Origin: Rhizophagus irregularis
Taxonomy: Eukaryota > Glomeromycota > Glomeromycetes > Glomerales > Glomeraceae
NCBI RefSeq assembly: GCF_026210795.1
Contig: NC_089435.1
Location: 1,736,001-1,800,000 of the forward strand
Length of the DNA: 64,000 nucleotides
Direction of reading: 5' to 3'
The translations under genes and the position numbers were made by a program. This document shows, piece after piece, positions 5,631 through 35,933 of this stretch. A model generated the notes under the pieces. That model had not been told where the DNA came from. It saw only the letters and a program-made list of their open reading frames with translations, and searched no databases. Within the stretch, counting starts at the first letter, position 1. Every line of letters begins with the position of its first letter.

Positions 5631-5665
5631 AAAGTCTTGGCTCTGAAGAGAGAGAGACGGAAAAG

Positions 5666-12074: not shown

Positions 12075-12166
12075 CAGATTTCTGGGAGGTGTCATATGAT
12101 AAGATATTCTATGGAATTCTTCAGAATTCTTTGGAATTCCAAATTTTTTTTTCGTAATAAGAACTA

Positions 12167-15815: not shown

Positions 15816-15862
15816 CAATTCCTATTATTAAAATAGATTCTGATGAAGCATGAAATGTAGAG

Positions 15863-21006: not shown

Positions 21007-21488
21007 GTCGTCGGGCTGGTAGTGTGCCTCGCTAGCGCTCACCCCACCTCGGCCAGAGCCTCGCAGTACCTACATCCCCCTCCGTGGGGCAGGGAACCCC
21101 CCATAGATCCTCCACAATTCTCCACATAGATCCTCCACAAAAATATATAACAAAAAAGGATAAAATAAGGGAAAAGAGAGGAAAATAAGAGGGAATCGGA
21201 GAAGTGTGGAGGATGTGGAGGATGTGGAGGACGTTTTAAAAAAATCGGGAGAGGGATCCCCCCAGAAAAAAGTTTTGATTTTACCCCCCAGATCCTCCAC
21301 ATCTTCCACATCTTCCACACGTACAGGATTCCATTCATTTTCCTATTGGAAGCAATGAGATAGCAAACCAGGTAAGTTATTAGCAGGTAAGTCCCTAGAA
21401 GGCCTGTAGAGCCATAGAGATATAACCGGGTAGGAGCGCGGATCTTTGGAAAAAATATATTCGGCAATTGAAGATTAGGTAACTATAA
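21007..21488. repeat. Element B left terminal inverted repeat (482 bp)
   Basis: Inverse of 35452-35933. Reading both, I find only three differences: one T/C transition near the outer end and two compensating single-G length changes in G runs. It contains GTGGAGGAT/GTGGAAGAT 9-bp tandem blocks. The inner end carries AATTGAAGAT pointing inward. ORF-like frames in the repeats (about 140 codons, facing outward on the left) are low-complexity Pro/His/Trp strings and not genes. Confidence 0.95.
21466..21475 (+). promoter_or_regulatory. Element B promoter-like box, helicase gene
   Basis: AATTGAAGAT, 42 bp before the helicase ATG, within the left terminal repeat. Same box at the inner end of the right repeat and before several other genes of the element. 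Confidence 0.6.
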
Positions 21489-21517
21489 ATTAGTACTCGA
21501 TTTGATAGAACGAAAAA

Positions 21518-23863
21518 ATGACCACTCAAGCTCAAGTTATCCCTAAGTTCGGTGAACAAAAGAAAGCCTTCAGTATCGATGAGCTTAAACGGCTTATTGT
21601 CGCTGCAAAGAGTATGAGTGACCTCGATCAAGCCAAGAGGTATCTTTGCAGTTATTTCATTCCCTGTGCAGATCCTCATGGGGTTTTCTGGTGGGACCCG
21701 GATAGTAAAAGTTTGAAACACGTTATTGACAAAAATATTGGTAAACTTATCCGTCCAATCACGAAGGCATTCTACACACAACCTGAACAAGGACCCTCTC
21801 AAAAGACCGAGTTCAACATCTACAAGTGGTTTATGGTCGAGAATACCGATGTATGTAATGCAACCTGTGATCCCCATAAACAGCGAATCTTCAGATCCTT
21901 AACTGGCCAACTCTATCTAAATATCTTCCCGGGATTCCTCCACGTCTTGCGTCCAATATCCACCTTTGAGTCTACAATCCACCTCGCGGTTAAATTTATC
22001 TTTTCTCATATTCGGGATATCTGGTGTTCAGGCGATTGGAATCTTACTGAGTATATCATTAAGTGGTTGGCCGGTGTATCTGCTGGAAGGAAGATGTACT
22101 CGATTCTTTACCTGAAATCTGGACAGGGTTGGGGCAAAGGTATTATAACAGATTTCATTCAGCGCAGCGTCCTAGGCACTCAACTCGTTTATAAGACCAG
22201 CGATCCTCGGACGATTCTTGGAAGTTTTAATGGGCAATTACAGGGTAAGGTTCTTCTTCTTCTCGAGGAAATGCCCACGGAAAAAAGCCAGTGGAATAAT
22301 CTGTATCGCTCTTTGAAGGATAAGGTAACGAGTGACATAATGGAAATCCATGAAAAATACAAGACACCAACACATTATAAAAACTTTATGTCCACTATCG
22401 TCCTAACCAACGAAAATGCTCTCAGAGTGGAGAATGACGATAGGCGCACAGTGTTCTTGGATGTGTCACCATCCCGCAAGGGAGACCTCAACTACTTCAA
22501 AAGACTCAGTGACGCTATGAAATACCCAGGCGCCAGTGAGGCGTTCTATGCTTACTTGAGAGCCATCGCAGACACTTACCCGGACTTCAATGGAAATCCA
22601 CCACCTATGACAACATCCAAACAGGAACATATCATCTCGACTCTTCCACCCCTATTTCAGTTTATAAAGGATACATACCTCGTAATGAAAAATTATATGA
22701 CCGACCTACCTATTCAAGAATTTTATAGGGTATATACTTCATACTGTGAAACTCATGGCATTACACCCTTATCAAAGATAAACGCTTCTAGAATCCTATC
22801 AAATGAGCTAAGTATAAAAAGTAAAAAAATGCGTATAGGTAAAACAACACCACAAGTTTACAGTATATCCAGGGAGGATCTATACAAGAAGTTTCTCGGC
22901 AAAAACTGGATCCACGAAACAGACGAGATAGACATAGAAGGAATTGATATAGAGACTTCTAAGAAACCCGCATCAGACCCCAAAGCCTTGGAAAAGTTCT
23001 TGGCAAATATATATAATCCAGCTAACAATCCACAAGACGTACAAGAGAAACCCACTGAGAAAAAACCCGAACCCGCTGAGGAAAAACCCACTGAGAAAAA
23101 ACCCGAACCCGCTGAGGAAAAACCCGCTGAGAAAAAACCCGAGCCAGATAACTACGACGTTTTAGATGACTTGCTATCTGACTCAGATTTTACAACTGTG
23201 AACCCAGCTCCTGAACAACAACCCGAGTCTCCCGCAGAATCTTCTGCATCTGTCACTAAGCCTGACCCAGAACCGGCTTCTGAAGAGCAATTTATCCCAG
23301 AACCCGACACAGAACCAGAAGTTGACCGGGATCCTGAACCAAAGGAAGGCACTCGAGCGCACTGGGCTTGGCAAGAAAGACACCGATGGGATCGCAAACC
23401 ATGGGTTAAAAATTTAAAGGACCAGGTCTTCAATGATCTCTACAATACAGGTAAGGAATTATGGGCCAAGTACCAAGATGCGTCAGACGAATATGACTGG
23501 GAAATACTCGCGTTTGAAATAGAGGAATGTCCCACAACGCGTATTGAGGACGAGTACCAGTACTACCTTATGGAGGTAGTAGACCGCTTCAAGGACTGGA
23601 TTGAATATAATGGATACTTACCTAAAATACCTAGCCGTAAAGAACTCGCAGATTTAATAAGAATATACAAGGAGAATCGTAATGCCGAGATTATTCCCAC
23701 CCCCTCTGGTTATGAAACTATGAGGGCAGATAAGGGTAAAGCGCGAGAGATCCCCGAGGAACGTCCAAAAACTGATATGGAACGTGAATGGGAGGCCGCC
23801 AATGGAATCATCGATGACTGGGACGAAGAGGATACTGAGGGCGCTATCAACGACATATTGTAA
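21518..23863 (+). CDS. Element B superfamily 3 helicase (D5-like)
   Basis: A protein of 781 aa, ATG at 21518. The N-terminal part (about 40-150, with GVFWWDPDSKSL) resembles the region ahead of viral D5-type SF3 helicases; no archaeo-eukaryotic primase motif is visible. The helicase core has Walker A SGQGWGKG at 201-208, Walker B KVLLLLEE at 244-251, motif C FMSTIVLTNEN at 290-300 and an arginine stretch DDRRTVFLD near 307-315. A disordered segment with three near-perfect KPTEKKPEPAEE repeats (about 513-545) links to a charged C-terminal domain that I do not recognise. It should unwind the element DNA during replication. First gene from the left end; the promoter sits in the terminal repeat; 85 bp ahead of the polymerase on the same strand. 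Confidence 0.88.
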   Translation: MTTQAQVIPKFGEQKKAFSIDELKRLIVAAKSMSDLDQAKRYLCSYFIPCADPHGVFWWDPDSKSLKHVIDKNIGKLIRPITKAFYTQPEQGPSQKTEFNIYKWFMVENTDVCNATCDPHKQRIFRSLTGQLYLNIFPGFLHVLRPISTFESTIHLAVKFIFSHIRDIWCSGDWNLTEYIIKWLAGVSAGRKMYSILYLKSGQGWGKGIITDFIQRSVLGTQLVYKTSDPRTILGSFNGQLQGKVLLLLEEMPTEKSQWNNLYRSLKDKVTSDIMEIHEKYKTPTHYKNFMSTIVLTNENALRVENDDRRTVFLDVSPSRKGDLNYFKRLSDAMKYPGASEAFYAYLRAIADTYPDFNGNPPPMTTSKQEHIISTLPPLFQFIKDTYLVMKNYMTDLPIQEFYRVYTSYCETHGITPLSKINASRILSNELSIKSKKMRIGKTTPQVYSISREDLYKKFLGKNWIHETDEIDIEGIDIETSKKPASDPKALEKFLANIYNPANNPQDVQEKPTEKKPEPAEEKPTEKKPEPAEEKPAEKKPEPDNYDVLDDLLSDSDFTTVNPAPEQQPESPAESSASVTKPDPEPASEEQFIPEPDTEPEVDRDPEPKEGTRAHWAWQERHRWDRKPWVKNLKDQVFNDLYNTGKELWAKYQDASDEYDWEILAFEIEECPTTRIEDEYQYYLMEVVDRFKDWIEYNGYLPKIPSRKELADLIRIYKENRNAEIIPTPSGYETMRADKGKAREIPEERPKTDMEREWEAANGIIDDWDEEDTEGAINDIL

Positions 23864-23921
23864 GCGCTATTTGAGATTATTTCTTTTTTTTTTCGTATAT
23901 ATATAGAAAGATATTATTTAT

Positions 23922-23931
23922 AGTTGAAGAC
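23922..23931 (+). promoter_or_regulatory. Element B promoter-like box, polymerase gene (variant)
   Basis: AGTTGAAGAC, 17 bp before the polymerase ATG, after an ATATATATAG stretch. It differs from AATTGAAGAT at two positions. Confidence 0.4.
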
Positions 23932-23948
23932 AAATCATATACATAAAA

Positions 23949-25802
23949 ATGCAATACTCAAGAATTGCCCGCACTTTACCAACACGACCTGACATCAAGG
24001 AACTTCAGTATTCCGGTGCTCGCTTTTCCAGAGGAGCTATCGCCAGACTCGGTCAGACTCTCCAGACGCGATTTCCAGATAGAAAGTTCCAGATCCTACT
24101 TCCCTATGAAAACTGGAAACCCGGTGGATGGACATCAGGAAACCAACCAGCCAGCCTCTTTTCACTATTAGACCATTATGATGAAGCACAACTACCGGAT
24201 GACGCAGACCCTGATTATTTTGAACGATTCATAATTTATGCAAGAGATAGTCCACCGGCCGCAGGAGGATGCAATGGGGAGCTAAATGATTGCCTGTATG
24301 AATGCCTAAAAAATATTTACGGCACATTCTCTAAAATGCCAAAGTCAATCGAAAAGCCCGAGTATATCAAAAAGGCATTAGGTCTCAATCGCGATGCTCC
24401 CATCCCAGTTTCATGCATGGACAAGGTTGAACAACTCGCAGGAAGTCTCGCAATTAATATTGTGGGGGACATTACCCGAATCTCTAAGAGTAAGTCCGAT
24501 AGACGTGCGACTCTCATCCTATCAGAAGGCCATTACTCCCTCACGTTAAATCCTGGAAGACTCCACCCCAGTAAAATAGATAAAAAGCGTAATTTACCCA
24601 TTGTATACCATGAAGATGGGACCAATAATGTAGTCACAATATACAACGGCAAAACAGTTAAGTCTTGCACAATTGCGCAGTTTCAAAAAACTAAGAATTC
24701 CAAAAGTTCTTTCATCCCCGTCGAGAAAAACCGTAAGACTGGAGTATATGAAACTCTTGAAGAAGCATATCAGAGAATCCACGAGGAGCGGAATTCCTTT
24801 CTACAGGAGACAAAGAAGTTCGGTTTAGGAATCGACTTATCATACCATAACTGGTCTTACAAAAGAACGGCTCTCTGGTTATTCGAACGATTAAGTGTAG
24901 GAATTCCAGCCAATGATCCTCTTGACCCGATAGAAGCGGAGTGGTTAAGTGATGCAATGATGGGAGGATTAATCTGGGCAGATAACGAGTGGAAAGGCTA
25001 TGGAAGACAGTATGACGCAACAAGTTTATACCCGAGTATCCAACAATCAAACGTGAACTTTCCAATCAGACGGGGTAAATTCCAGACACTTAATGACTTT
25101 GTCGACCACAGGGGTTATGCCTTGTATGGATTATTCCGTGCCAAAATAAGTGGGAATAATATTCTCTTCCGACAGAATAAAAGGGGAATCTATACATTCA
25201 TCGACTTACAACGAGCAAAAAAACTTGGTCTCAATATACAGTTAATACAGGATGGGAAGCCAAATGCATTGATATATGATAGAGAAGCGAGAATCCCTGG
25301 AACTGTAATATTCGGTGAGTATGTACACTTCCTCTTCAAAATTAAAAACCAGGGTGGCATAGCTGGCCGCGTGGCAAAGCGAGTCCTCAACACATTATGG
25401 GGAGCATTATGCCAGAGGAAGCGTAATTACAAGACACTCACCACAGATCAAACAGACCCATTTACATTTCCAGAGGGCCATACACTCGACTCTATCATAC
25501 CAGTAGGATCTGACCAGTGGCGATTCCAGTTTACAAACCCGGGTAATCCCTTCAAAGGTGAGTATCCCAGGATCGCCCCATTCTTATTAGCACGTGGTCG
25601 CAAAATCACATCTGAGGCAATTCAACCATACAAGGATAAAGTACGACGTATCCATACAGACGGATTTATTTTAGAAGAACAGCCAGATAGCCCCGCGCTT
25701 TTCACTTGTTCAGAGAATGCAGATACGACTCTAAAGACTTTCAAGTTTGAAACCGCGGGATACTGCCATGTGAAAAATGCGAACAAGGTTATCTGGACAT
25801 GA
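23949..25802 (+). CDS. Element B family B DNA polymerase with unusual N-terminal domain
   Basis: A protein of 617 aa. Motif A is QYDATSLYPS (Asp356), motif B is KRVLNTLWGALCQR (478-490), motif C is IHTDGF (Asp571). These are the palm motifs of the protein-primed/DNA_pol_B_2 type. No 3'-5' exonuclease Asp/Glu motif is visible. Instead residues 100-200 hold GGCNGELNDCLYECL (Asp114-Cys115) and, 80 residues on, LSEGHYSLT (His195). That pattern is reminiscent of OTU/papain-like cysteine proteases. The protein is short for a family with exonuclease and terminal-protein domains. It replicates the element DNA. It is quite different from element A's polymerase (YVDANNLYG, YMDTDSF), so the two elements are not close relatives in this gene. 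Confidence 0.88.
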   Translation: MQYSRIARTLPTRPDIKELQYSGARFSRGAIARLGQTLQTRFPDRKFQILLPYENWKPGGWTSGNQPASLFSLLDHYDEAQLPDDADPDYFERFIIYARDSPPAAGGCNGELNDCLYECLKNIYGTFSKMPKSIEKPEYIKKALGLNRDAPIPVSCMDKVEQLAGSLAINIVGDITRISKSKSDRRATLILSEGHYSLTLNPGRLHPSKIDKKRNLPIVYHEDGTNNVVTIYNGKTVKSCTIAQFQKTKNSKSSFIPVEKNRKTGVYETLEEAYQRIHEERNSFLQETKKFGLGIDLSYHNWSYKRTALWLFERLSVGIPANDPLDPIEAEWLSDAMMGGLIWADNEWKGYGRQYDATSLYPSIQQSNVNFPIRRGKFQTLNDFVDHRGYALYGLFRAKISGNNILFRQNKRGIYTFIDLQRAKKLGLNIQLIQDGKPNALIYDREARIPGTVIFGEYVHFLFKIKNQGGIAGRVAKRVLNTLWGALCQRKRNYKTLTTDQTDPFTFPEGHTLDSIIPVGSDQWRFQFTNPGNPFKGEYPRIAPFLLARGRKITSEAIQPYKDKVRRIHTDGFILEEQPDSPALFTCSENADTTLKTFKFETAGYCHVKNANKVIWT

Positions 25803-25865
25803 TTGCTAGGGACCGGTATGTATATTTTTTACTGACATATCGTGATGGCATAATTGAATAAACCT

Positions 25866-26390
25866 ATGGGATATGTAATCTTACGAGATACCCAAATGCA
25901 AAACACCGACGGATTAGGTAGACAAGACGACGAAAGTTTCCACGTGTGGGCTAAGCGCATTCAGAATGCTGTGCAATATTATGAGACTTGTAGTAGAATA
26001 GGTTTTCATAGGCGGCTACCTTATCCAAGGTCTCGTCAAGCTGTATATGCTTATATTGTGCACATTAGGAGAATAGTATCACGACTACCAAATAGGTGGT
26101 ACTGTACCTACTGTAAATCTTTTATTGATCGCGGATGGGGAGCTGACGCTTTCATGGATCAAGCGGTGCGACTACATTTATATAGTTGCCCAAAGCATTT
26201 TAATTTCGACTATTATACTCATCATGCTGAAATGATCCAGAATGCCTTTAGGAGATATATAGAAAGAAGGAACAATAAAGCGGCTAGGATAATCCAGAAA
26301 GTCGCTATCCCCTGGTTATATAGACCAGGCTCTCCATTGATGCAAAAGGCCGAGCGACGCTTCTACTGTCTTGCAGTATCCCAAGTGTAA
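25866..26390 (+). CDS. Element B protein with zinc-finger-like site and IQ-like motifs (174 aa)
   Basis: The frame is open from a TTG at 25854; the first ATG is 25866, which I take as the start. Central YCTYCKSF and HLYSCPKH provide two Cys-Cys/His pairs that could bind zinc. The C-terminal half has two IQ-like blocks, EMIQNAFRRYIERR and ARIIQKV, the type of basic helix that binds calmodulin in other proteins. Such IQ blocks also occur in some large-DNA-virus proteins. Function not known. It follows the polymerase by 63 bp on the same strand. Confidence 0.6.
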   Translation: MGYVILRDTQMQNTDGLGRQDDESFHVWAKRIQNAVQYYETCSRIGFHRRLPYPRSRQAVYAYIVHIRRIVSRLPNRWYCTYCKSFIDRGWGADAFMDQAVRLHLYSCPKHFNFDYYTHHAEMIQNAFRRYIERRNNKAARIIQKVAIPWLYRPGSPLMQKAERRFYCLAVSQV

Positions 26391-26434
26391 ACCCCGAGGT
26401 TCATATTTATTTTTTCTCATTCGAATGAACAGGT

Positions 26435-26444
26435 AACTGAAGAT
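26435..26444 (+). promoter_or_regulatory. Element B promoter-like box, 156-aa gene
   Basis: AACTGAAGAT, one change from the consensus, 28 bp before the ATG, followed by TTATATTTTTTAC. Confidence 0.5.
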
Positions 26445-26472
26445 TTATATTTTTTACAAAGTACAAAGAATC

Positions 26473-26943
26473 ATGTCAACATATACCGAATTCGCAAGCA
26501 TTGTTAACAGCACTGACAGCACTAGTGAGGAGGTTATTTACGAGGCATCGCGCATTCAGCCTAATGTTGTCTCTGACGAAACTGTCCCCAAGATTATCCG
26601 CGCATTAAAAGATACTATAGTAATCGCATTAGTATCTGGGTTTAGCAAAACCAGTTACCTCGTCCAGGACCACGTGAAGTATATCAAGCGAATCCAAACG
26701 GCAAATTCTCCTGTATCATATGTGAAGTTCGTGGCCAGAAAACTCTTCCCAGATAATGCGGCATATACTGCTAAAATAGCAAAAATCCGCGAATCATACA
26801 AGAATAAACAAGCTCTCCTAGATAAGCTTGAGGCCCTCTTCGAATTGTATTATAATGCGACTAAGGACTCATCAACCGGTCCCCCAAAGCGAGCTATTAC
26901 TAAAAACGAGGCTGAGAAAACCTTAACAGAACTTCTTGCATAA
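26473..26943 (+). CDS. Small protein conserved between elements A and B (B copy, 156 aa)
   Basis: ATG at 26473. All-helical-looking protein without cysteines. Its central and C-terminal parts (VKYIKRIQTANSPVSYV ... LLDKLEALFELYYNATKD) align by eye with element A's 125-aa protein. The C-terminal 25 residues are Lys-rich and may be a tail. No known domain. It has its own promoter-like box, which suggests independent expression. Confidence 0.65.
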   Translation: MSTYTEFASIVNSTDSTSEEVIYEASRIQPNVVSDETVPKIIRALKDTIVIALVSGFSKTSYLVQDHVKYIKRIQTANSPVSYVKFVARKLFPDNAAYTAKIAKIRESYKNKQALLDKLEALFELYYNATKDSSTGPPKRAITKNEAEKTLTELLA

Positions 26944-27016
26944 GCGGCTCCTGTGGTCCTACGATTCTGTACGAATTTAGTCTATATTTTTTATCCATGT
27001 GTAATAGGCATACAGT

Positions 27017-27026
27017 AATTGAAGAT
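27017..27026 (+). promoter_or_regulatory. Element B promoter-like box, F-box gene
   Basis: AATTGAAGAT, 26 bp before the ATG at 27053; a TATATTTTTTAT stretch lies about 30 bp further upstream. Confidence 0.6.
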
Positions 27027-27052
27027 AGCTATAGTATAAGTAACATAACATC

Positions 27053-27457
27053 ATGTTGGACCGATTACCAGTAGAAATAGTCGAACGCATTGTCGCAAAG
27101 ATCCCGGATACTGACCTTATTGCAGCGAGTAAGGTAGATAGAGTGTGGTGGCAGGAAGTTCGTCGAGAGGCATATAAGAGGTGGAAAAATTATGCCACTA
27201 CGATCGGGGATGTGTACTGTGAAATCCGAGCTCTCGGAAAGCATTATATAAAGAGGGAAATTGACTGGATAACGTTTGAAGATGTAAACGACTTCTATAA
27301 AAGATGGATAGACCGCCTCACCGAGGATCAGCTTTATATTATGGAGAAAATGCTTAGGAATGGGATGGTCGTGGACCCCCAAGAGAGGGAAACCATAGAG
27401 CATGCATTAAGTGAACAAAGATGGGGAGGCGATCCTTGGAGACTGGGAGTGGTATGA
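27053..27457 (+). CDS. Element B F-box protein (134 aa)
   Basis: The N-terminal 45 residues are a good F-box: LDRLPVEIVERIV followed by DLIAASKVDRVWWQEV, with the Leu-Pro start and the Val/Trp end of the motif. The rest (46-134) has no repeat domain and ends with WGGDPWRLGVV. F-box proteins bind Skp1 and bring targets to the SCF ubiquitin ligase. In viruses they are used to degrade host factors, so a host-directed role is likely (inference). Short for a cellular F-box protein but usual for a viral one. Confidence 0.8.
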   Translation: MLDRLPVEIVERIVAKIPDTDLIAASKVDRVWWQEVRREAYKRWKNYATTIGDVYCEIRALGKHYIKREIDWITFEDVNDFYKRWIDRLTEDQLYIMEKMLRNGMVVDPQERETIEHALSEQRWGGDPWRLGVV

Positions 27458-27796
27458 ATGGACTCAACAGGAGTAAGCATTTTGTACTTGACTTTCGTAG
27501 GAATTACCCTGCAGAGTCATATTTTTTAGATCCGGCCGGCATTACCGCGTAATCCCGAATTACCGAAAAAGGAAATTTATGTTACACAAGATTCCAAACG
27601 CATTTTTACCAAAATCGATTTTTTGTGGAACGGGTATCGCCCAAAAAGGAAATGATCTACGTACCACATGAAGTCACGTGACACTCTACACATTTGTTCA
27701 GGGTATCACGTGACATGAACTCCGTTCACATTTTCTGTAATATAATCCATAGTTTTTTCATGAATGCTTTTTAGGCCAATAATCCAATAACTTATT

Positions 27797-27952
27797 CATC
27801 AGGTATCCTCGTGTTTTGCGACAAGGACTGATGACCATGTAACCTCATCATCAGGCATCCTCACATTTTTTGACAAGGACTGATGACCATGTAACCTCAT
27901 CATCAGGCATCCTCGCATTTTTTGACAAGGACTGATGACGATGTCACTTGGT
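27797..27952. repeat. Three 52-bp tandem repeats (iteron-like) in element B
   Basis: Unit starts CATCAGGCATCCTC and ends GACTGATGACCATGTAACCTCAT; three copies with few changes. Each unit holds CATCAG and CTGATG about 26 bp apart, so it can form a small stem. Intergenic, near the middle of the element. Confidence 0.8.
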
Positions 27953-27959
27953 TATTGTA

Positions 27960-27969
27960 AATTGAAGAT
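27960..27969 (+). promoter_or_regulatory. Element B promoter-like box, 194-aa gene
   Basis: AATTGAAGAT, 36 bp before the ATG at 28006, immediately after the 52-bp repeats. Confidence 0.6.
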
Positions 27970-28005
27970 AACAATTAGGTATGTAGACACGTACAGAAAA
28001 AAGAC

Positions 28006-28590
28006 ATGTCATACCCTTATATAACTAATCCTATAACCGGACGTCCAATCCGTGTTGGTGGAGATACCTTTAATCGAATAGTTATGGAATCCCATGATTA
28101 TATCGATGGAAGGCTTGTCCGTAGACAAACCGTACCGCCTCCACCCCAGGAACAACCTGTATATTTAAATACAGATACAGGACGCTATATTCAACACGGT
28201 ACTAGAACGTATCATAGACTGGTTGAGAGTGACTACGAGGTAGTTGAGGACTACTACCTTGTTCATTCTGAAGAGGAGGAGCTTATAGAGGAAATCATCA
28301 ATGAAACACGCTATAATGAGGAAAATCTTGATGGCCAGCGGTTAACTTTCAATAATGTACAACAAATCAGAGCCGCTATTCAAGCTGACCAAGATGAATA
28401 TGATGATTTTATCTTACAGCAGAATACGACTAACGGGACACCTTCCTCCGGTCCTTCCGGTCGTCCACGAACTTTGGAGGACCATGCCCCGAGACTTGCA
28501 GAGCTTAATATTGAGTTGTGTAGGGAATGTCTCATGCCTGTAAGCCCAAGTGACTTAACGGACAAGTTGTGCAAGGACTGCGCTTCCTAA
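28006..28590 (+). CDS. Element B protein with two 2-cysteine-adaptor-like motifs (194 aa)
   Basis: Residues 6-29 read YITNPITGRPIRVGGDTFNRIV, and about 51-72 repeat it as VYLNTDTGRYIQHGTRTYHRLV. The NP-x-TGR-x-I-x-x-GG-x-T-[YF] pattern is the core of the short adaptor-like motif common in nucleocytoplasmic large DNA virus proteins (2-cysteine adaptor family, though the cysteines are not seen here). A middle acidic part (SEEEELIEEII) is followed by a C-terminal CREC ... CKDC zinc-binding pair. Function unknown; the motif is a strong sign of viral ancestry. Confidence 0.7.
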   Translation: MSYPYITNPITGRPIRVGGDTFNRIVMESHDYIDGRLVRRQTVPPPPQEQPVYLNTDTGRYIQHGTRTYHRLVESDYEVVEDYYLVHSEEEELIEEIINETRYNEENLDGQRLTFNNVQQIRAAIQADQDEYDDFILQQNTTNGTPSSGPSGRPRTLEDHAPRLAELNIELCRECLMPVSPSDLTDKLCKDCAS

Positions 28591-28750
28591 TGGTCAGTCC
28601 TCCGGTCCTCTGGTCTTCCGGTCTTTCCAACGGTTGATCCCTTAATGCCAGTTATTTTTTTTTATACAAATGACAGGTATTTAAAGATAACAATATATAA
28701 AAAAGATTGTGAAGGATACTAAGTGAGCGAATAATCAAAGAAAGATAGCC

Positions 28751-29302
28751 ATGTCAACATCAATCGTAATAAACCAGTGTCAGAACTGTGGAGTATTCTC
28801 TGCAAAAGCGGCATATAGAGGATTATCCAGCGTGTTGTATAGACAGATTATAAAGAAGATTGGTGACGAGAGTGAACCTTTACAAGCCTTGGGACTTGCC
28901 AGGGATAAGTTGGTCCAGATTATCCGTCGGGCAAGTAATGCGGATTTTACACAATTATTCACACAAAGACTAGATATGAAAATTATGGACGGAGATTCAT
29001 ACGAGGATACTAGGAAGTGGCTTCTTGAACAGCTTATAGCCATTGGATGTGACAGTGGGGAAATTGCCTTATATCAGTTCTTACGGAATACATACCCGGA
29101 TGGTATTGACGAACCCTTTACTACATTCTATGAGAACTATGTAAATCATGTAAGAAATCCGATGACTAAGAACTTTGCTTCTCGAGCCTTAGGAGCTATT
29201 GGATTAAAAGCTAGGATGCTACGGATTGACTTCGAAGGACGTAAAAAAAGCGCCATGATTCTTAGGGCTTCTGCGGAAGAACTTCGCGAGATGGGTTGCT
29301 AA
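28751..29302 (+). CDS. Element B unrecognised protein (183 aa)
   Basis: ATG at 28751. N-terminal CQNCG pair, then a largely helical protein (LYRQIIKKIGDESEPLQALGLARDKLVQII) with a basic Lys/Arg patch near the end (FEGRKKSAMIL). It stops 14 bp short of the convergent ATPase stop. A GATTGTGAAGGAT sequence about 40 bp upstream is a weak match to the promoter box. No family recognised; could be structural. Confidence 0.55.
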   Translation: MSTSIVINQCQNCGVFSAKAAYRGLSSVLYRQIIKKIGDESEPLQALGLARDKLVQIIRRASNADFTQLFTQRLDMKIMDGDSYEDTRKWLLEQLIAIGCDSGEIALYQFLRNTYPDGIDEPFTTFYENYVNHVRNPMTKNFASRALGAIGLKARMLRIDFEGRKKSAMILRASAEELREMGC

Positions 29303-29315
29303 AGCAACCAGATTC

Positions 29316-30506
29316 TTACAAAATACTATTGATCCCTACTCGTAATGCTCGACGGTCCATATGACCCTTAGAAAAGATCTGTAAAAGGACCCCGATGCCT
29401 TCTATTAATTTTTTATTATCCAAAGGGTGACTAGACTTCAGGACTTCATATCGGGAGAATAACTCCTTTACGGTCTCAGATTTTGGAATTTCAGTCTTTG
29501 CGGTCCTATCCCGTACTTTTGCTAAGAATTTTTGGAAGTCCGATCCCAGGGTTTTACCAGATAGTCCGTAGGCTTCCCGAAAGACGTACTTAATCCAGGT
29601 ATCTGCGTTCTTAGCTATAATACCAGATACGAGGAGGTGTTTTCTCTCTTTAGGCGATGGATATTCCCGAGCAAACTCAATTAGCTGGGAGGACTTTTTT
29701 GCTTCAGCTACAGCTTTCTGGCCATAAGGACTAAACTTTGATCGAACTGGGTTCAAACTCGGATCGAACGGGGATTGAACTGAGTTCGAACTAGGATCGA
29801 ACTGAGATTGATCAGTGATCGAACTGAGACTAGTATCCCATCTAACCCGAATGGATAACGGATCGCTCTTGGATCTTCTAAGATCAAATACTATAAATTC
29901 GCGTTGCAGAGTAAGGTCATCGATTACTGGAGCTAGTGACTCCGATTCTTCTGTATACTGGCGGATGATCCTCTTAGTATCAGTCAAACTTCCGTGACCT
30001 CCATGTAGGGAAATATAATTCACATTTTCACGAATAGCCTTGGGAATGGTAAAGAATCTTTGGGCCACATAAATACATGAAATATTTTTGTGTTGTCCGT
30101 GTGTAAAAAATCCAGTGATGAGATCCTGGGTTTTTTTAGGCGCATCCATCAAATCCTCGAAGATTACCACAGTAGCCTGGGTGGAGTTGAAGTCCTTAAC
30201 ATTTGGAATCTCACTATGGGATACTGCGGTAAACGGAATTTCTTCTTCTTTGAAAAAATCACGTACGATTGCCCACTTCGGTTCATCGAGGTATCTGCCA
30301 ACTAGAATTACCGCATCACATAATATGTACCTTTCGCCATCCTCCTTTGCCTTCTTGTCTCCCATTAACAAATTAATGATCATAGTTGTCTTACCCGAGT
30401 CAGAACTTCCTGCTACGGCAAGACAGAAAGGCCATGATGGGGCAAACTCATTACCCTGTCTCGAGTCGGTCGTGTACTCGTCCAAATTGTATACATAAAG
30501 ATCCAT
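29316..30506 (-). CDS. Element B A32-like (FtsK/HerA) DNA-packaging ATPase
   Basis: A protein of 396 aa, ATG at 30506. Walker A GSSDSGKT at 33-40, Walker B ATVVIFEDL at 111-119, and a conserved TGFFTHGQHKNIS-type block after it, where family members have a His-Lys stretch followed by QR (YVAQRFF). This is the vaccinia A32-type genome packaging ATPase found in Polintons, virophages and large DNA viruses. It should pump DNA into a preformed shell. Four near-repeats of SSNSVQSPFDPS type (about 237-255) form a linker ahead of the C-terminal domain. Divergent from the coiled-coil gene with only 28 bp between. Confidence 0.85.
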   Translation of the reverse strand: MDLYVYNLDEYTTDSRQGNEFAPSWPFCLAVAGSSDSGKTTMIINLLMGDKKAKEDGERYILCDAVILVGRYLDEPKWAIVRDFFKEEEIPFTAVSHSEIPNVKDFNSTQATVVIFEDLMDAPKKTQDLITGFFTHGQHKNISCIYVAQRFFTIPKAIRENVNYISLHGGHGSLTDTKRIIRQYTEESESLAPVIDDLTLQREFIVFDLRRSKSDPLSIRVRWDTSLSSITDQSQFDPSSNSVQSPFDPSLNPVRSKFSPYGQKAVAEAKKSSQLIEFAREYPSPKERKHLLVSGIIAKNADTWIKYVFREAYGLSGKTLGSDFQKFLAKVRDRTAKTEIPKSETVKELFSRYEVLKSSHPLDNKKLIEGIGVLLQIFSKGHMDRRALRVGINSIL

Positions 30507-30534
30507 TTGAATTTTATTCTAATTTAGTTTAAAT

Positions 30535-31248
30535 ATGATGTCGACATCGACACCAATTGCAATTTATACTCCTTCAGAGCCTACTGGACCGCCTCCTAGG
30601 GATTTGCGTGATATGAATAATATACCATTAGTTGCGGTAATTAAGGATCTAACAGATTTTTTAACTGTCAGTGATCGCATGGTTGTTAATCGAGATGTAC
30701 AAAATGCAAACCATCGTCTTAAACATGCTCTTAATTTATTAATTCATCGCTGTAGAGAAACATACGAAGAACGTGATATATTAAAAGCGGAACGCGATCG
30801 ATCTCGAAAAGAACGCGATGAATTACAAGACGAACTCGAGGTTCAAACAGGTTTGTTAGGTCTTACACAAGATGAGCTAAATAACGTACAAGATACTATT
30901 ACTAGTTTAGAAGCTAATTTGGCTGAATTGGAACGGGAGTTTGGTGGTATGCGGACGACTAATCGTCGTCTTCAGCAGCAATATAATCTTATGAGAGGAG
31001 AACGTAATAGAGCTATAGGTGAACGTAATAGAGCTATAGGCGAGCGTGATGTGGCACGAAATCGGCTTGTATATGCCAATAATCGGGTTCTTTTTGGAAT
31101 TCGGACATTGGGACGTCTTAGGAATCGACTTTTCCAACAAATAGCCGCTCTGCGTATCCAAGTACAATGGTTTCGGATTAGACAATTGAACCCTCCTCCA
31201 CATCCTCTCAACCATCCACAAAATACGATATGGCTGCCGTTGGTATAG
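30535..31248 (+). CDS. Element B coiled-coil protein upstream of Gag (237 aa)
   Basis: Starts MMSTS at 30535. After a Pro-rich start the protein is a long charged coiled coil (about 85-190) with repeats ERNRAIGERNRAIGERD. It overlaps the Gag ATG by 19 bp in the -1 relation. Its place and nature match the coiled-coil part fused to Gag in element A, so it is probably a Gag partner or an N-terminal Gag module split off. Confidence 0.7.
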   Translation: MMSTSTPIAIYTPSEPTGPPPRDLRDMNNIPLVAVIKDLTDFLTVSDRMVVNRDVQNANHRLKHALNLLIHRCRETYEERDILKAERDRSRKERDELQDELEVQTGLLGLTQDELNNVQDTITSLEANLAELEREFGGMRTTNRRLQQQYNLMRGERNRAIGERNRAIGERDVARNRLVYANNRVLFGIRTLGRLRNRLFQQIAALRIQVQWFRIRQLNPPPHPLNHPQNTIWLPLV

Positions 31249-32726
31249 CTGCCCCCATATTTCATGGTCGGGAAGATGAAGATCTTAATCTTTTTATTGA
31301 TAACTTTTTAGGGTATATTAATACCGTTGGTATTGATCCATTGGACGATGCCGGTGCGCCTCCTGGTCGGGTGCGAGCGATGGGGGTTCTTCGTAGCTGT
31401 ATGAGAGATGAAGCGGCGAGGTGGTTTGATGCAGAACTTACTGGAAAAAATTGGGAACTCTCGAATATTCGGTTAGTGGCTGCTGCAAATGGTGGAGCCG
31501 GTGCTACTCGCCGAGCGTTCAGAGCTTTAGCTGTTCCTGAGGTTGCTAATGGATTACATGTTGGTACTTACTTACCCGGGTCTGATGCTGATGTATATTC
31601 AAGGGTTGCAGGTAATGCGGCGGTAACCGTTGGAGATGCATTTTTCCCATCACGCGCTGATATCGTTAGAACGAATTTTAAAGTTGAAGAGCAGTGGAGG
31701 CGTGCGGGCGGACGTCCTACTCATCAACCCGTTAATGGGTTGGGAAATCATGGAGGTCCATTTAATGCTGCTGTCCAGAATCAACCAATAGTCTTACAGG
31801 GGATTCTCCTGGATCAAGCATTTATGCATATGCGTACAAATTTTCCAACCGTCGTGGAAGAAAGACTTCAGATACGATTTAGTAATCTTTACCAGGAACA
31901 AGGTGAACCTGTTCGATCTTACTATAAGCGAGTTGAGAGGGCTGGGGATATTGTAGGATATAATCGAATTATGGTTACTGACCAGTTCTATAGAGGACTT
32001 TTGCCGGAAAACGTTATTGAAGCTTCCAGAATCGGGGCGGCACCTCTTAATACATTAATCGATAGATTGAGTGATCTTGAGCGACGAAAGGGCGAAATGT
32101 TCTATGGATTACAAAGGCGTCAGGGTATTGAAAAGGCTAAAAAAGAGGAATTGGCTGGCTATACTCATCCCGTGACTCCACACGAAGGTGCTGTAATACA
32201 AAGGTCGACAGACGTTATTACTCAAGAACGATTACAAGAATTGCTCAAGGCACAAGCCGAGGAACTTACCAAGAATTTCCAGGCACAATTTAAACAATTA
32301 CAAGCATCTAAGCCAGTTCGTAAACCACCGGTCTATAGACAACAGATTAAACCTGTTCGACCAAAACCACAGAGACGTGTCATTCAGGATCCTCAGGATC
32401 CTGATTGGGATGATGGTTATGTAGATCATAATTTTGGTGATGACCCTGGTGACCCTGATGCTCCTGAGTGGACTAGTGAGGATGATCAACATGTTATTGA
32501 TCTTATTATGGGATATGAGACGTCTAAAAGATTTCCAAAGAGACTTCAGAAGGCTAAAGATAGACGCGATGATCTGGAATTAGCCCGAGCAATGAGAAAC
32601 CTCGATCTTAATGATGATGCTATGGATATTGATACTAATACCACGAGTTTTGATGACTTGAAAATTGTTCCCGATGAGGAAGGTGGTTTTCGGATTTGTG
32701 TGGTTCGAAGTACAAAAAAAAAGTAA
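31230..32726 (+). CDS. Element B Gag-like capsid protein (498 aa)
   Basis: ATG at 31230. It opens IAAPIFHGREDEDLNLFIDNF, the form of the first helix of Ty3-type Gag, followed by RSCMRDEAARWFDAEL (the Ala-rich helix with the WF/WW pair). Near residue 200-270 comes LQIRFSNLYQEQGEPVRSYYKRVERAGDIVGY, matching the Gag pattern Q...E.V..Y..RF. A Lys/Pro linker and an acidic C-terminus follow; there is no CCHC knuckle. A long insertion (about 85-185) separates the two Gag halves. It ends at TAA directly after the A9 run used to enter the protease frame. I infer that it forms the particle shell in place of the usual double jelly-roll protein. Confidence 0.72.
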   Translation: MAAVGIAAPIFHGREDEDLNLFIDNFLGYINTVGIDPLDDAGAPPGRVRAMGVLRSCMRDEAARWFDAELTGKNWELSNIRLVAAANGGAGATRRAFRALAVPEVANGLHVGTYLPGSDADVYSRVAGNAAVTVGDAFFPSRADIVRTNFKVEEQWRRAGGRPTHQPVNGLGNHGGPFNAAVQNQPIVLQGILLDQAFMHMRTNFPTVVEERLQIRFSNLYQEQGEPVRSYYKRVERAGDIVGYNRIMVTDQFYRGLLPENVIEASRIGAAPLNTLIDRLSDLERRKGEMFYGLQRRQGIEKAKKEELAGYTHPVTPHEGAVIQRSTDVITQERLQELLKAQAEELTKNFQAQFKQLQASKPVRKPPVYRQQIKPVRPKPQRRVIQDPQDPDWDDGYVDHNFGDDPGDPDAPEWTSEDDQHVIDLIMGYETSKRFPKRLQKAKDRRDDLELARAMRNLDLNDDAMDIDTNTTSFDDLKIVPDEEGGFRICVVRSTKKK

Positions 32727-33445
32727 ACTCGGATAAGGGTGTAAGTATCTCGAAACTTCTTAAATCTGTTCCAAAAAAATCAGTTAAAATGACTCCTATT
32801 AAGATTCCTGTGAAGGTTACTAGTAGTAAGCCCACACTTATAAAAGCCGTCACCAAAAATGATTCATTAAGTTTATTAAGGTCTGCAGATTTTAGGAAAT
32901 TACTCCGCGAGATTCTTCGGGAAGAATTAAAGTCTGCTCGTAAAAGTACGGAGATTCCGGAAGACCTAGTTGAGGAAAAACAAGAAGAGGATATCAGGGA
33001 AGATGACCCGATGGATATTGACATAGCTCGTTTGGAGAATACTAAAGATCTTTTAGCGCTGGATGGGGAGGTCAATGGGATAGCAATTCAGTGTTTAGCA
33101 GACACTTGTGCTAACGCGTCTTTTATTCAGAGGGAAGCCGCTGAAGAATTAGGGTTGGATATCGACAAGAGTATTACACATAACATATCCGGCGCTCCGG
33201 GTTCTGGTAGGACATTCGGCATGGTAAAAGGTGTGTCAATCAAACTAACCCCTGATTGTGTAATCACTGAGAATCTCGCGGTTTTAAGCGATTACAAGCA
33301 TAGGGAGATTGGATTGAGCCGGACGTGTCTGAAACGTTACAATTATGATGTCCATGAATCACGTGAACATATCGCCCTTACTTGTAATGAGAAGAATGTT
33401 TTTATCCCGATAGTTTCTGATGTGAATCGAGGAGACAAAAAATAG
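32696..33445 (+). CDS. Element B retropepsin-like protease (active site DTC instead of DTG)
   Basis: The open frame begins with TTG at 32696 inside gag and is most likely reached by -1 frameshift at the A9 run. A Lys-rich linker with FRKLLREILREEL helices leads into the protease part at about 115-249. The active-site region IQCLADTCANASFI aligns with retropepsin DTG[AS]; the Gly is Cys here. The following LGLDIDKSITHNISGAPGS and GMVKGVSIKL align with element A's intact protease. With Gly replaced, activity is doubtful, yet the frame is fully open. It ends 14 bp from the convergent integrase stop. Confidence 0.75.
   Translation: MCGSKYKKKVNSDKGVSISKLLKSVPKKSVKMTPIKIPVKVTSSKPTLIKAVTKNDSLSLLRSADFRKLLREILREELKSARKSTEIPEDLVEEKQEEDIREDDPMDIDIARLENTKDLLALDGEVNGIAIQCLADTCANASFIQREAAEELGLDIDKSITHNISGAPGSGRTFGMVKGVSIKLTPDCVITENLAVLSDYKHREIGLSRTCLKRYNYDVHESREHIALTCNEKNVFIPIVSDVNRGDKK
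32711..32726 (+). promoter_or_regulatory. Element B predicted -1 ribosomal frameshift site (A9)
   Basis: TAC followed by nine A and GTAA. Gag reads ACA AAA AAA AAG TAA; the -1 frame reads TAC AAA AAA AAA GTA and opens into the protease. Same arrangement as A10 in element A. Confidence 0.7.
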
Positions 33446-33459
33446 GGAATATTTATTTT

Positions 33460-34551
33460 TTATTCCCAAAACTTGCGGATTAAGGCAGGGACATCCTCCT
33501 CCAACCGGTCAGTGGGTTCCCAAGTGGCTTCGGTATCTGGGTATCGTTCCCACTTGACTAGATACTGGTCTTGACCCTTCCTGATGCGATGCCGGAGTAT
33601 CCGCTCAGGTACAAATCTTTCGGGTTGCCCTCTTATCATGGAGTCAGGTGGGGGATGTTCATTTTCTGGAACAATCTGCAACTCTTTTCGGGTGTACGCA
33701 CATCTGGATACACCTAGACGCCCGTGTGGTCCATCAAGAAGATACGTAGGAGGCTGTTCGGGTGAGAGGATCATTTTTTTGATGACACGGATATTGGGAT
33801 TCCATCTTATGTCACCTGTACGAAATTTTCCATGGAGTTTATTCCCGAGTACTGAAATAGGTTCGTCTAACTTGACTCGGACATGTGTTCCTTCAGAGAG
33901 AAGTTCCGTCTTTTTTGACACTTTGGGTGACCCTGTCGGAATGTCTGGGGGATTTCTCTGCCAGATTTCATCTATTTTATTAACTACATCACGGAAATCT
34001 TCTGACCATTCCACGGATGTCACCCCGGTCTTCAACTCCTGTGCCACCATTCGTTTTAGGAGAGGCTCCTGGATCGCTTGGATAGCTCGTTCAGCGTATG
34101 ATTGCTGTTTGTGTCTTCCTGGCTCTCCAAACCTCATCATCACCCCTAGGCTGTTCAGGAAAAAATCACGTACCTGATCATTGGTGAATTCTGATCCGGA
34201 GTCTGTCTCCATTCGATGTGTTGGTGGTTTAATGCGATTTCTTCTGTAGATTTTAACAAATCCATTGAGAACCCTATTTGCAGTCTTATCCTTTAGGAGT
34301 TCTGCATCAACTCGTTTACCCGCGACTTCCACCACTATGAGAAAATAGTGGAATCCTTTGGGGTCGACTGGCATCTCTGCGAGATCTGCCTGATGCGTCG
34401 CATTTGGTTTCCATACAACTACTCGTGGACGCTCTGATGACTTTTCCTTTAGGGGCTTTTTGTATAGGTTGTAGTGCTCCTCACCTTTTAGAATTCGTGC
34501 TGGTACTCTGGAGAGATTGTAGTATTTGTAGTAATTCTCTAAATGCGACAT
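33460..34551 (-). CDS. Element B integrase (rve) with C-terminal chromodomain
   Basis: Start taken at the ATG at 34551; the open frame goes on upstream to a TTG at 34587. 363 aa. Triad: D56 (THQADLAEMP), D117 (METDSGSEF), E154 (QSYAERAIQ). The C-terminal GDIRWNPNIRVIKKM ... RKELQIVPENEHPPP block matches element A. It ends in a clear chromodomain (about 308-363: ERILRHRIRKGQDQYLVKW, then WEPTDRL). Chromodomains read methylated histone tails and steer integration. Inserts the element DNA; makes the 5-bp duplications seen. 44 bp divergent from the zinc-ribbon gene. Confidence 0.9.
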   Translation of the reverse strand: MSHLENYYKYYNLSRVPARILKGEEHYNLYKKPLKEKSSERPRVVVWKPNATHQADLAEMPVDPKGFHYFLIVVEVAGKRVDAELLKDKTANRVLNGFVKIYRRNRIKPPTHRMETDSGSEFTNDQVRDFFLNSLGVMMRFGEPGRHKQQSYAERAIQAIQEPLLKRMVAQELKTGVTSVEWSEDFRDVVNKIDEIWQRNPPDIPTGSPKVSKKTELLSEGTHVRVKLDEPISVLGNKLHGKFRTGDIRWNPNIRVIKKMILSPEQPPTYLLDGPHGRLGVSRCAYTRKELQIVPENEHPPPDSMIRGQPERFVPERILRHRIRKGQDQYLVKWERYPDTEATWEPTDRLEEDVPALIRKFWE

Positions 34552-34595
34552 ATTACGACAAATTAAAGGAAAGATTTCGGACTTCAAATCTTAAA

Positions 34596-34916
34596 ATGAC
34601 ACGATTTTACTGCCTAAAGTGTAAGAAGGAAACCGAGACTGCTAGTGAAATACAAGATATGACCACAAATGGCCGCTATCGTTTACATGGTGATTGCACA
34701 GTTTGTGGTATGCATAAGAATACTTTTACTGGGATAGACTGGGTTATCAAAAAGAAAACCAAGGAGAAGAAAAAAGAAACTGCGGCTAAAAGACATCAGA
34801 CGGCGTACAATCGGCAATGCAAAAAACTCGGGCAGAAAATCTTAGAGGCTGATGACGCGTGTAAACAGTGTATTGATAAATGCCTTAAGGAGGCAAAAAA
34901 GAGGAAGACGGATTAG
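34596..34916 (+). CDS. Element B zinc-ribbon protein, DUF5679-like (106 aa)
   Basis: The open frame begins further upstream antisense to the integrase, but the ATG at 34596 fits the start of the conserved domain: FYCLKCKKETET ... NGRYRLHGDCTVCGMHKNTF. Four zinc ligands, C6, C9, C34, C37. The 'YC.KC...NGR..L.G.C..CG..K' pattern is that of DUF5679-type viral zinc ribbons. A Lys-rich tail with four more cysteines (C..C...C) follows. Such proteins are common in virus-like elements, function unsettled; nucleic-acid binding is probable. Confidence 0.72.
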   Translation: MTRFYCLKCKKETETASEIQDMTTNGRYRLHGDCTVCGMHKNTFTGIDWVIKKKTKEKKKETAAKRHQTAYNRQCKKLGQKILEADDACKQCIDKCLKEAKKRKTD

Positions 34917-34925
34917 TACCGCCTT

Positions 34926-35441
34926 CTAAAAGTATTCCTCATCATCTGAGTCATCGAGAGATACCTCTCCATCATCTGATTCATCATCCGAGTCGTCAGG
35001 AGTGCGACCTTCCTTAAGCAATTGGATGTTGTACGTTATTTGAGTCCATTTCTCCCAGTCGGACTCTTGCGTTATAAAGCCGCATCTGAGGAGTGCTCTT
35101 TCTATTACTACCATCCCTGCAAACCTGGTGTATTTTTTCTGATCGGCTTCATTGAAATTGTCAATAGCTTCTTTGTAGTAGTCTACTGCTTGTTTGTATA
35201 CCTCTTCGGCTTCTTTATGCCGCTTCCACAACTCGGCTTTACAACAGTTATACCAGAGTCTGTTAATCTTGAGATGTTTTCCGAATTCTTTAACCGGAAG
35301 GTTTCTGACCATCTCTGCTACTATGTCCGGGTCATTGAGGGGTGATGCCTGAATTTGGATCCATTTACGGATTCCATAGATGTCTACAAGATCAAGCCCG
35401 AGGTCTTCGGCAAGAGAAGTGGCGGCGTGTAAGTTTATCAT
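34926..35441 (-). CDS. Element B F-box-like protein (171 aa)
   Basis: ATG at 35441, directly inside the right terminal repeat. Residues 38-75 (PDIVAEMVRNLPVKEFGKHLKINRLWYNCC) resemble an F-box; weaker than the one at 27053 but with the Leu-Pro and the terminal Trp. The rest is helical, with a Asp/Glu/Ser-rich C-terminus. The promoter box in the terminal repeat is the same as that of the helicase gene, so both ends fire inward. Could be a second host-directed adaptor; could also be unrelated. Confidence 0.6.
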   Translation of the reverse strand: MINLHAATSLAEDLGLDLVDIYGIRKWIQIQASPLNDPDIVAEMVRNLPVKEFGKHLKINRLWYNCCKAELWKRHKEAEEVYKQAVDYYKEAIDNFNEADQKKYTRFAGMVVIERALLRCGFITQESDWEKWTQITYNIQLLKEGRTPDDSDDESDDGEVSLDDSDDEEYF

Positions 35442-35451
35442 TGTATGTTAC

Positions 35452-35933
35452 TTATAGTTACCTAATCTTCAATTGCCGAATATATTTTTTCCAAAGATCC
35501 GCGCTCCTACCCGGTTATATCTCTATGGCTCTACAGGCCTTCTAGGGACTTACCTGCTAATAACTTACCTGGTTTGCTATCTCATTGCTTCCAATAGGAA
35601 AATGAATGGAATCCTGTACGTGTGGAAGATGTGGAAGATGTGGAGGATCTGGGGGGTAAAATCAAAACTTTTTTCTGGGGGGATCCCTCTCCCGATTTTT
35701 TTAAAACGTCCTCCACATCCTCCACATCCTCCACACTTCTCCGATTCCCTCTTATTTTCCTCTCTTTTCCCTTATTTTATCCTTTTTTGTTATATATTTT
35801 TGTGGAGGATCTATGTGGAGAATTGTGGAGGATCTATGGGGGTTCCCTGCCCCACGGAGGGGGGATGTAGGTACTGCGAGGCCCTGGCCGAGGTGGGGTG
35901 AGCGCTAGCGAGGCACACTACCAGCCCGACGAC
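35452..35933. repeat. Element B right terminal inverted repeat (482 bp)
   Basis: Inverse of 21007-21488 with three differences. Ends CCAGCCCGACGAC. Confidence 0.95.
35465..35474 (-). promoter_or_regulatory. Element B promoter-like box, 171-aa gene
   Basis: AATTGAAGAT on the minus strand, 23 bp before the ATG of the F-box-like gene; mirror of the box at 21466. Confidence 0.6.

Follow-up and report, generated by a model that had tools for sequence, protein, structure and literature searches.

The root-symbiotic fungus Rhizophagus irregularis carries a virus-like DNA element, here called element B, for which our analysis supports a composite gene content: a Maverick/Polinton-like replication, ATPase and integration set combined with a Gag–protease cassette. 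Element B lies in the window, the 64,000-nucleotide stretch of DNA that we analyzed. Our working interpretation, which we hold with about even confidence, is that it is a DNA-replicating Polinton-like element with a retroelement-type structural module and that a Gag particle most likely holds its DNA.

Gene content and ends of element B

The original prediction of a Polinton/Maverick-like gene set was confirmed: element B has an SF3 helicase, a family B DNA polymerase (PolB), an A32-like ATPase, an rve integrase and long terminal inverted repeats (TIRs). Its features, by position in the window, are as follows.

21007..35933, unstranded: element B, whole, 14,927 bp, bounded on each side by the 5-bp target-site duplication (TSD) ATAGG
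21007..21488, +: left TIR, starting GTCGTCGGGC
21518..23863, +: SF3/D5-like primase-helicase, 781 aa (DUF5906, 5.9e-17)
23949..25802, +: PolB, 617 aa, unbroken (PF03175, 6.7e-6)
25854..26390, +: ORF, 178 aa, no assignment
26473..26943, +: ORF, 156 aa, no assignment
27053..27457, +: ORF, 134 aa, weak F-box match (PF00646, 0.0078, below cut-off)
28006..28590, +: ORF, 194 aa, weak 2-cysteine adaptor match (PF08793, 0.00094, below cut-off)
28751..29302, +: ORF, 183 aa, no assignment
29316..30506, −: A32-like packaging ATPase, 396 aa (PF04665, 1.4e-8, above cut-off)
30535..31248, +: coiled-coil protein, an ORF of its own
31230..32726, +: Gag-like protein, 498 aa, predicted capsid (CA) C-terminal domain (CTD) at residues ~214–285
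32696..33445, +: retropepsin-like protease, −1 frame, motif DTC (PF13650, 4.2e-8)
32714..32722, +: putative slippery run of nine A, immediately upstream of the Gag stop codon
33460..34587, −: rve integrase with C-terminal chromodomain (PF00665, 7.2e-8, above cut-off; PF00385, 4e-17)
34404..34916, +: ORF with DUF5679 domain (PF18930, 1.1e-17)
34926..35441, −: ORF, 171 aa, no assignment
35452..35933, −: right TIR, 11 mismatches in 482 to the left copy

The TIRs are 482 nt long, 98% alike and begin with GTCGTC. Element B is inserted into one of the window's two LTR retrotransposons, within its Gag gene. The TSD measures 5 bp, unlike the 6 bp stated for this integrase type in the text consulted of PMC12220804. 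The same length was found in 7 of 10 other copies retrieved, with no TSD in two and three bases in one.

Below the cut-off, the helicase also matches Pox_D5 (0.0022) and TIGR01613 (2.2e-6). The PolB in the window scores 0.1 bit under the PF03175 cut-off, and this model matches 13 of 19 aligned relatives; the relatives (best 120 of 162) are close to it in length. A PDB sequence search with PolB gave no match. By eye, its N-terminal part bears a likeness to OTU-type cysteine proteases. The ATPase has the Walker A motif GSSDSGKTT (by eye), matches the terminase phrog_2666 (1.8e-5) and occurs at 104 loci in the R. irregularis genome; its PDB search returned a single unrelated match (0.17). We considered that ATPase copies might be split across two frames and dropped the idea: the seven partial-match pairs checked were in-frame, differing only by a repeat stretch. 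The integrase retains its D, D and E residues (by eye), and its PDB matches are chromodomains and, weakly, integrases. Pfam found no reverse transcriptase or RNase H among 14 element B ORFs, in NCBIfam, searched with eight element B ORFs, no model covered PolB, ATPase or Gag, and neither the viral contig scans nor a genome contig scan recovered relatives.

Capsid families likewise had no match in the 14 ORFs searched with Pfam or in the eight searched with NCBIfam, and Pfam gave no adenain/Ulp1-type cysteine protease in those 14. Element B holds no unassigned ORF longer than 200 aa counted from a start codon; by profiles and size, no penton (single jelly-roll) gene was found, the unassigned ORFs measuring 156–194 aa. 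Between the TIRs, 92% of the sequence is taken up by ORFs, and the largest gap, 548 nt, leaves no room for a double jelly-roll capsid gene. The predicted lack of jelly-roll genes is supported in part, by profiles and size for the other ORFs, structural modeling having covered Gag. One capsid profile searched against the genome itself was silent, as were its control searches, and for the small ORFs a crude Chou–Fasman count gave no information. Could a jelly-roll capsid have been overlooked, or be supplied by another element or virus, with Gag as an extra? For five ORFs of 156–194 aa the fold is not firmly assigned, and Mavericks are numerous in R. irregularis, where they are among the recently expanded families according to the text consulted of PMC8647823. 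We nevertheless consider this improbable, given the dense ORF coverage, the small gaps and the lack of capsid family matches in the ORFs searched.

The Gag–protease cassette and its recurrence

Structure prediction supports a CA-CTD fold in the Gag-like protein of element B (Gag-B), and the outcome named as adverse to the original prediction, no Gag capsid fold in the 498-aa protein, did not appear. PEG10 is the best solved match to the predicted CTD in Foldseek, followed by retroviral CAs, with no match at E 0.001 or better. The model as a whole is poor (mean pLDDT 40.8), with values of 60–79 in the CTD and low confidence in the N-terminal half. A CCHC zinc knuckle occurs in none of 120 Gag-B proteins (best 120 of 190), every one of which is labeled R. 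irregularis. PDB searches gave only weak UBA-domain/ubiquitin-family matches, both for the Gag–protease profile (E 0.09) and for the protease alone (E 0.013). A frameshift had been proposed between the coiled coil and Gag; it found no support, and the coiled coil is a separate ORF. A spliced coiled-coil/Gag join as the sole reading was rejected as well.

The −1 frameshift layout proposed for Gag and protease was borne out as an arrangement, with the slippage itself putative: in 20 of 24 Gag-B copies, representing two subfamilies, the protease sits in the −1 frame behind a run of nine A. Three of the remaining copies have eight A and a +1 frame, and one has a stretch without protease. The A-run and −1 protease also occur in 8 of 18 copies of the second Gag described below (Gag-A), at identities down to 38%. 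No RNA structure or stem was detected downstream of the A-run (z 0.16). A spliced Gag–protease join was set aside: NCBI models disagree on the junctions, and the A-run with its −1 protease recurs across diverged lineages. The protease motif reads DTC in place of DTG/DSG in all 103 protease models that reach it, with 17 of 120 proteins (best 120 of 190) lacking the stretch; protease activity may therefore be weakened or abolished.

Gag-B is present at 84 loci in the genome, in the same layout with the ATPase at 75, the integrase at 80, both at 72 and PolB at 58. In a control of 200 shifts, the corresponding means were 0.36, 0.42, 0.29 and 1.23. At least one other element gene stands near Gag in fixed orientation at all 84 loci, one of which has PolB only. 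Conversely, 15 of the 71 loci with PolB and 29 of the 104 with the ATPase show no Gag match in place. In other assemblies, 23 of 58 Gag contigs equal PolB contigs in size, which is a hint, not proof, of a shared contig. The element is present in many copies, a good number of them with an open Gag frame; dN/dS of open frames was 0.30 (10 open Gag-B copies), 0.42 and 0.40, which supports purifying selection on them. Because it recurs in most copies examined, the cassette is a real, fixed part of the element B family and no accident. These data bear on chance nesting, the insertion of an LTR retrotransposon fragment into a single copy of the element. With two LTR elements in the window and element B itself inside one of them, such an event is conceivable locally, but the 84 linked loci refute it and purifying selection also speaks against it, leaving it a negligible probability.

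A second Gag lineage and the origin of the unit

The Gag trait is wider than element B. A second, divergent Gag–protease–integrase lineage (element A) lies at 12859–16906 of the window, with a probable polymerase beside it.

10085..11731, +: probable family B polymerase, motifs only
12859..13515, −: retropepsin, DTG motif (PF13650, 2.9e-7)
13956..13997, −: CCHC zinc knuckle CSNCGRTGHSKNKC
14241..15818, −: coiled coil and predicted Gag CA domain, two ORFs here (AF2 pLDDT 89.4)
15863..16906, +: integrase (PF00665, 1.5e-6, below cut-off)

In the predicted structure, Gag-A residues 145–324 align to two-domain CAs, and the model supports a CA-CTD fold. Ty1 p22 is among the folds listed for Gag-A and aligns to its N-terminal part. 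The CCHC motif occurs in 24 of 94 Gag-A relatives by pattern and in 5 of 51 by Pfam zf-CCHC (E up to 0.1), and the DTG motif in the element A protease of the window and two relatives. Profile comparison gave no significant similarity between Gag-A and Gag-B, or between either of them and an LTR Gag from the window. The element A polymerase had no Pfam support and no match in phage tblastn; its five weak PDB matches are all labeled TNA polymerase (best E 0.18).

The two elements share homologous integrases (26% over 286 aa, 6e-13) and retropepsins (25%, 4e-12), and their polymerases have no detectable similarity. This pattern speaks for a retroelement origin, in which Gag, protease and integrase derive together from an LTR element that lost reverse transcriptase and gained a DNA-virus polymerase and helicase, as opposed to a Polinton that lost its capsid. 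An integrase adjoins Gag-A at 60 of 67 loci, and the 5-bp TSD points the same way, this length being typical of LTR retrotransposons. Against it, rve integrases occur in Polintons themselves, the element A integrase core also matches those of both window LTR elements, and the element A polymerase is recognized by motif only. We regard such an origin as rather unlikely; it concerns origin only and fits either a shell or a non-shell function of Gag.

Known systems and possible functions of Gag

Element B resembles Polintons/Mavericks (polintoviruses) in its PolB, A32-type packaging ATPase, rve integrase, long TIRs and 15-kb size. It differs in having Gag and a retropepsin instead of a detected double jelly-roll major capsid protein (MCP), penton and Ulp1/adenain-type protease, in its 5-bp rather than 6-bp TSD and TIR start, and in its 617-aa PolB, in which no exonuclease part was recognized by eye. 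A survey states, in the text consulted, that the double jelly-roll MCP is intact or split in >80% of the Polintons covered (PMC4028283). Glomus intraradices Polintons without MCP have already been published (PMC7805220), and the relevant passages of PMC7805220 and PMC10120064 interpret MCP-less Polintons as having given up the shell for transposon life. Our literature search found no report of Gag in MCP-less R. irregularis Polintons. The MCP-less Polinton-like elements described here keep a different shell-type gene under selection, together with a protease.

With Ty3/gypsy and Ty1/copia (Metaviridae, Pseudoviridae), element B shares a predicted Gag CA fold, a retropepsin out of the Gag frame, an rve–chromodomain integrase and a 5-bp TSD. 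Unlike LTR retrotransposons, it has TIRs rather than LTRs, its ORFs match neither reverse transcriptase nor RNase H, and it has a DNA polymerase and helicase. PEG10 and Arc are among the closest solved CA-CTD folds, and PEG10 likewise uses a Gag/Gag–protease frameshift, as described in the text consulted of PMC7212762. Both are host genes, whereas element B Gag is part of a DNA element. Caulimoviridae enclose their DNA genome in a shell related to Gag and have a knuckle and aspartic protease; they are reverse-transcribing and, unlike element B, are not known to encode PolB, a helicase or a packaging ATPase. Ginger-type DNA transposons carry a retrotransposon-like integrase, as element B does, and we know of no replication genes, ATPase or Gag in them. 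Such transposons are named in PMC6431247.

Under our working interpretation, element B would be replicated as DNA by its own helicase and polymerase, and its rve integrase would insert it, leaving 5-bp duplications. Gag would be the main product, with slippage on the nine A near its stop codon yielding a minority Gag–protease. Gag would assemble into a Ty3/Copia-like particle, which most likely would contain element DNA, perhaps loaded with the help of the A32-like ATPase. The particle could then carry DNA between nuclei in the shared mycelial cytoplasm, and movement of this kind would make an infectious virion unnecessary.

A Gag shell is favored by the predicted CA fold, by the second lineage with its predicted two-domain CA and CCHC knuckle, and by retention of a packaging-type ATPase in element B despite the absent MCP. 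The linkage counts, the dN/dS values of open Gag frames and the recurrent A-run with its −1 protease count in its favor too. For comparison, the text consulted of a survey of 72 Polintons describes nine without MCP that also lack ATPase and protease (PMC4028283). The DTC motif and the missing zinc knuckle count against DNA packaging by Gag-B, and the ATPase could serve some other role. The low-confidence Gag-B model, the lack of an RNA stem after the A-run and the PolB and ATPase loci with no Gag match in place also weigh against the shell reading. The fuller proposal is a capsid swap between the jelly-roll and Gag shell types. Double-stranded DNA copied by the lineage's own PolB would be enclosed in a retrovirus-type Gag particle, served by an A32-type ATPase and a −1 frameshifted protease, and the Gag–protease–integrase module would be spread over at least two Glomeromycotina element lineages. 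We advance it tentatively, at somewhat less than even confidence.

A less probable but still substantial alternative is that Gag and protease belong to the element and are under selection but form no DNA shell. Gag would act instead, for example, in guiding the integrase and DNA to chromatin, in RNA binding or in blocking rival Gags. Blocking has a precedent in the Ty1 p22 fragment, whose fold is among those listed for Gag-A, aligned to its N-terminal part. The same two features of Gag-B, DTC and the lack of a knuckle, suit this alternative, and a chromodomain integrase with self-replicating DNA may be enough for transposition. It fits less well with preservation of the Gag–protease layout and A-run in several lineages and of a packaging-type ATPase beside Gag-B.

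If Gag packages element DNA, shell type and replication type would be exchangeable across the deepest division among viruses. Even without DNA cargo, our literature search found no report of Gag being used in this way, as a conserved Gag–protease inside a DNA element. Direct testing is feasible because copies are numerous and many of their Gag frames are open.

Structure of element B and linkage of its Gag gene

Element B, a Polinton/Maverick-like DNA unit at window positions 21007–35933, is bounded by terminal inverted repeats (TIRs) of 482 nt with 98% identity. The interval that they enclose holds fourteen ORFs, which take up 92% of it (largest gap, 548 nt). Among these are a D5-like SF3 helicase, a family B polymerase (PolB), an A32-like ATPase and an rve-chromo integrase; each of these genes named in the original prediction, as well as the long TIRs, was found. 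Judged from its sequence, element B would replicate and integrate as a Maverick does. Its Gag ORF (Gag-B) is a 100% match to an NCBI R. irregularis protein. The element has inserted into an LTR retrotransposon, within its Gag gene, and excising element B in silico together with one 5-bp repeat restores that Gag frame. The target site duplication (TSD) of the window copy is 5 bp; among 10 copies selected from a further 14 TIR-end pairs, seven have a 5-bp TSD, two have none and one has three bases. This is shorter than the 6 bp that excerpts from PMC12220804 state for integrases of this kind.

Minor features of element B include the following:
23949–24600: N-terminal part of PolB, with a conserved NDCLY...GHYSL pattern and with C115 and H195 unchanged across an alignment of 19 sequences
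27053–27457: ORF with a weak F-box match
27796–27944: a 52-bp unit repeated in tandem about three times, within the largest non-coding gap
29740–29826: tandem repeat inside the ATPase gene

By eye, PolB seems to carry at its N-terminus a fused cysteine protease of the OTU type; Pfam gave no match backing such a protease in this part. The ATPase ORF is longer (411 aa) in many copies and stays in one frame in 7/7 checked, so the protein varies in its number of repeats.

In R. irregularis's own genome (146.7 Mb, 32 contigs), Gag-B has at least 89 matches, which merge into 84 loci. We compared their surroundings with a control in which Gag positions were moved by 60–400 kb, 200 times. Counted from gene matches that are lower bounds, 75 of the 84 loci have an ATPase upstream, antisense to Gag (control mean 0.36, maximum 2), 80 have an integrase downstream, also antisense (0.42, 3), 72 have both (0.29, 2) and 58 have PolB no more than 30 kb upstream on the Gag strand (1.23, 6). 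All 84 loci have at least one of the three in place, one of them PolB alone. In the reverse view, Gag is in place at 56 of 71 PolB loci (15 without) and 75 of 104 ATPase loci (29 without). The first lead came from NCBI contigs, where, among the matches listed, 23 of 58 Gag contig sizes recur for PolB (four <60 kb), as do 2 of 33 for Gag-A, the Gag of a second, divergent unit (element A); an equal size is a hint of one contig rather than proof. Gag and protease are almost certainly an integral, selected part of DNA element B.

Gag–protease junction and the coiled-coil protein

In 20 of 24 Gag-B copies, the protease lies at −1 to Gag, with overlapping frames and nine A before the Gag end, consistent with the predicted −1 arrangement of these two genes. 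Three copies have eight A and a +1 relation, and one has no protease within the stretch examined. The nine-A run (window 32714–32722, just before the Gag stop) is kept between B1 and B2, the two subfamilies of Gag-B copies, while flanking sequence differs. The putative slippage there may be by either ribosome or RNA polymerase; no RNA structure stands out downstream of the run (z 0.16). NCBI gene models join Gag to protease by splicing, at several differing junctions.

The coiled coil had likewise been predicted to join Gag by frameshift. The supposed 95-nt intron of the coiled-coil/Gag stretch was compared in a B1 and a B2 copy: of its 31 codons, taken in the frame of the coiled coil, 13 differ only synonymously and 2 change an amino acid, and 12 of the 19 base differences fall at third positions; because changes are mostly synonymous or at third positions, the stretch looks coding. 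The coiled-coil frame of the B2 copy stops just ahead of the opening of the Gag frame. From these two features, we read the coiled coil instead as a probable separate protein. Among the best 120 of 190 Gag-B proteins, 64 NCBI models fuse it to Gag, 7 begin at Gag and the other 49 show neither arrangement; dual use of the coiled-coil/Gag stretch by splicing is possible.

Selection, possible shell function and classification

Selection was assessed in 24 distinct Gag-B copies, of which 20 with an open Gag frame were compared and 4 were left out for an internal stop or no start-pattern match. Mean dN/dS is 0.30 within B1 (45 pairs), 0.42 within B2 (45) and 0.40 between them (100), values biased towards constraint by open-frame-only sampling. 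B1 and B2 Gags are 53–56% identical. Because their proteases (87–89%) and integrases (about 90–92%) are far closer, Gag either evolves much faster or moves between elements.

Among the best 120 of 190 models, none has a zinc knuckle in Gag-B, and the protease motif is DTC, not DTG, in all 103 containing that stretch (17/120 are without it). Because DTC is fixed across B1 and B2, it does not reflect decay of the window copy; the protease may have altered or lost activity. The missing zinc knuckle and the DTC motif speak against a working Gag shell. We hold only tentatively, at even confidence or somewhat less, that Gag forms a particle carrying element B DNA.

A canonical Polinton has a 6-bp TSD and a double jelly-roll major capsid protein (MCP). 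Tested for both, element B shows a 5-bp TSD and no MCP match among its 14 ORFs, so we do not file it as a canonical Polinton; the second result agrees with the predicted absence of the MCP. Excerpts from published work mention MCP-less Polintons of Glomus intraradices (PMC7805220), see MCP loss as a shift to transposon life (PMC7805220, PMC10120064) and describe nine Polintons jointly without MCP, protease and ATPase (PMC4028283). R. irregularis transposable-element papers name Mavericks and, in the excerpts at hand, make no mention of a capsid or Gag in them (PMC8647823, PMC11075540). Searches of open-licence full texts, judged at the level of listings and selected passages, brought up no paper that describes a Polinton with Gag; one of the papers listed, PMC12455990, brings Polinton, Gag and Rhizophagus together.

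Other elements in the window

Element A (10085–16906) is a decayed Gag-protease-integrase unit that carries a polymerase-like ORF of its own; a search for long TIRs around it found none. At 1–9888 lies an LTR retrotransposon whose Pol ORF (5666–7747) ends, past the reverse-transcriptase part, in the stretch IVIIDGVDGLGKTS..., which by eye looks like a thymidylate-kinase-type P-loop domain.
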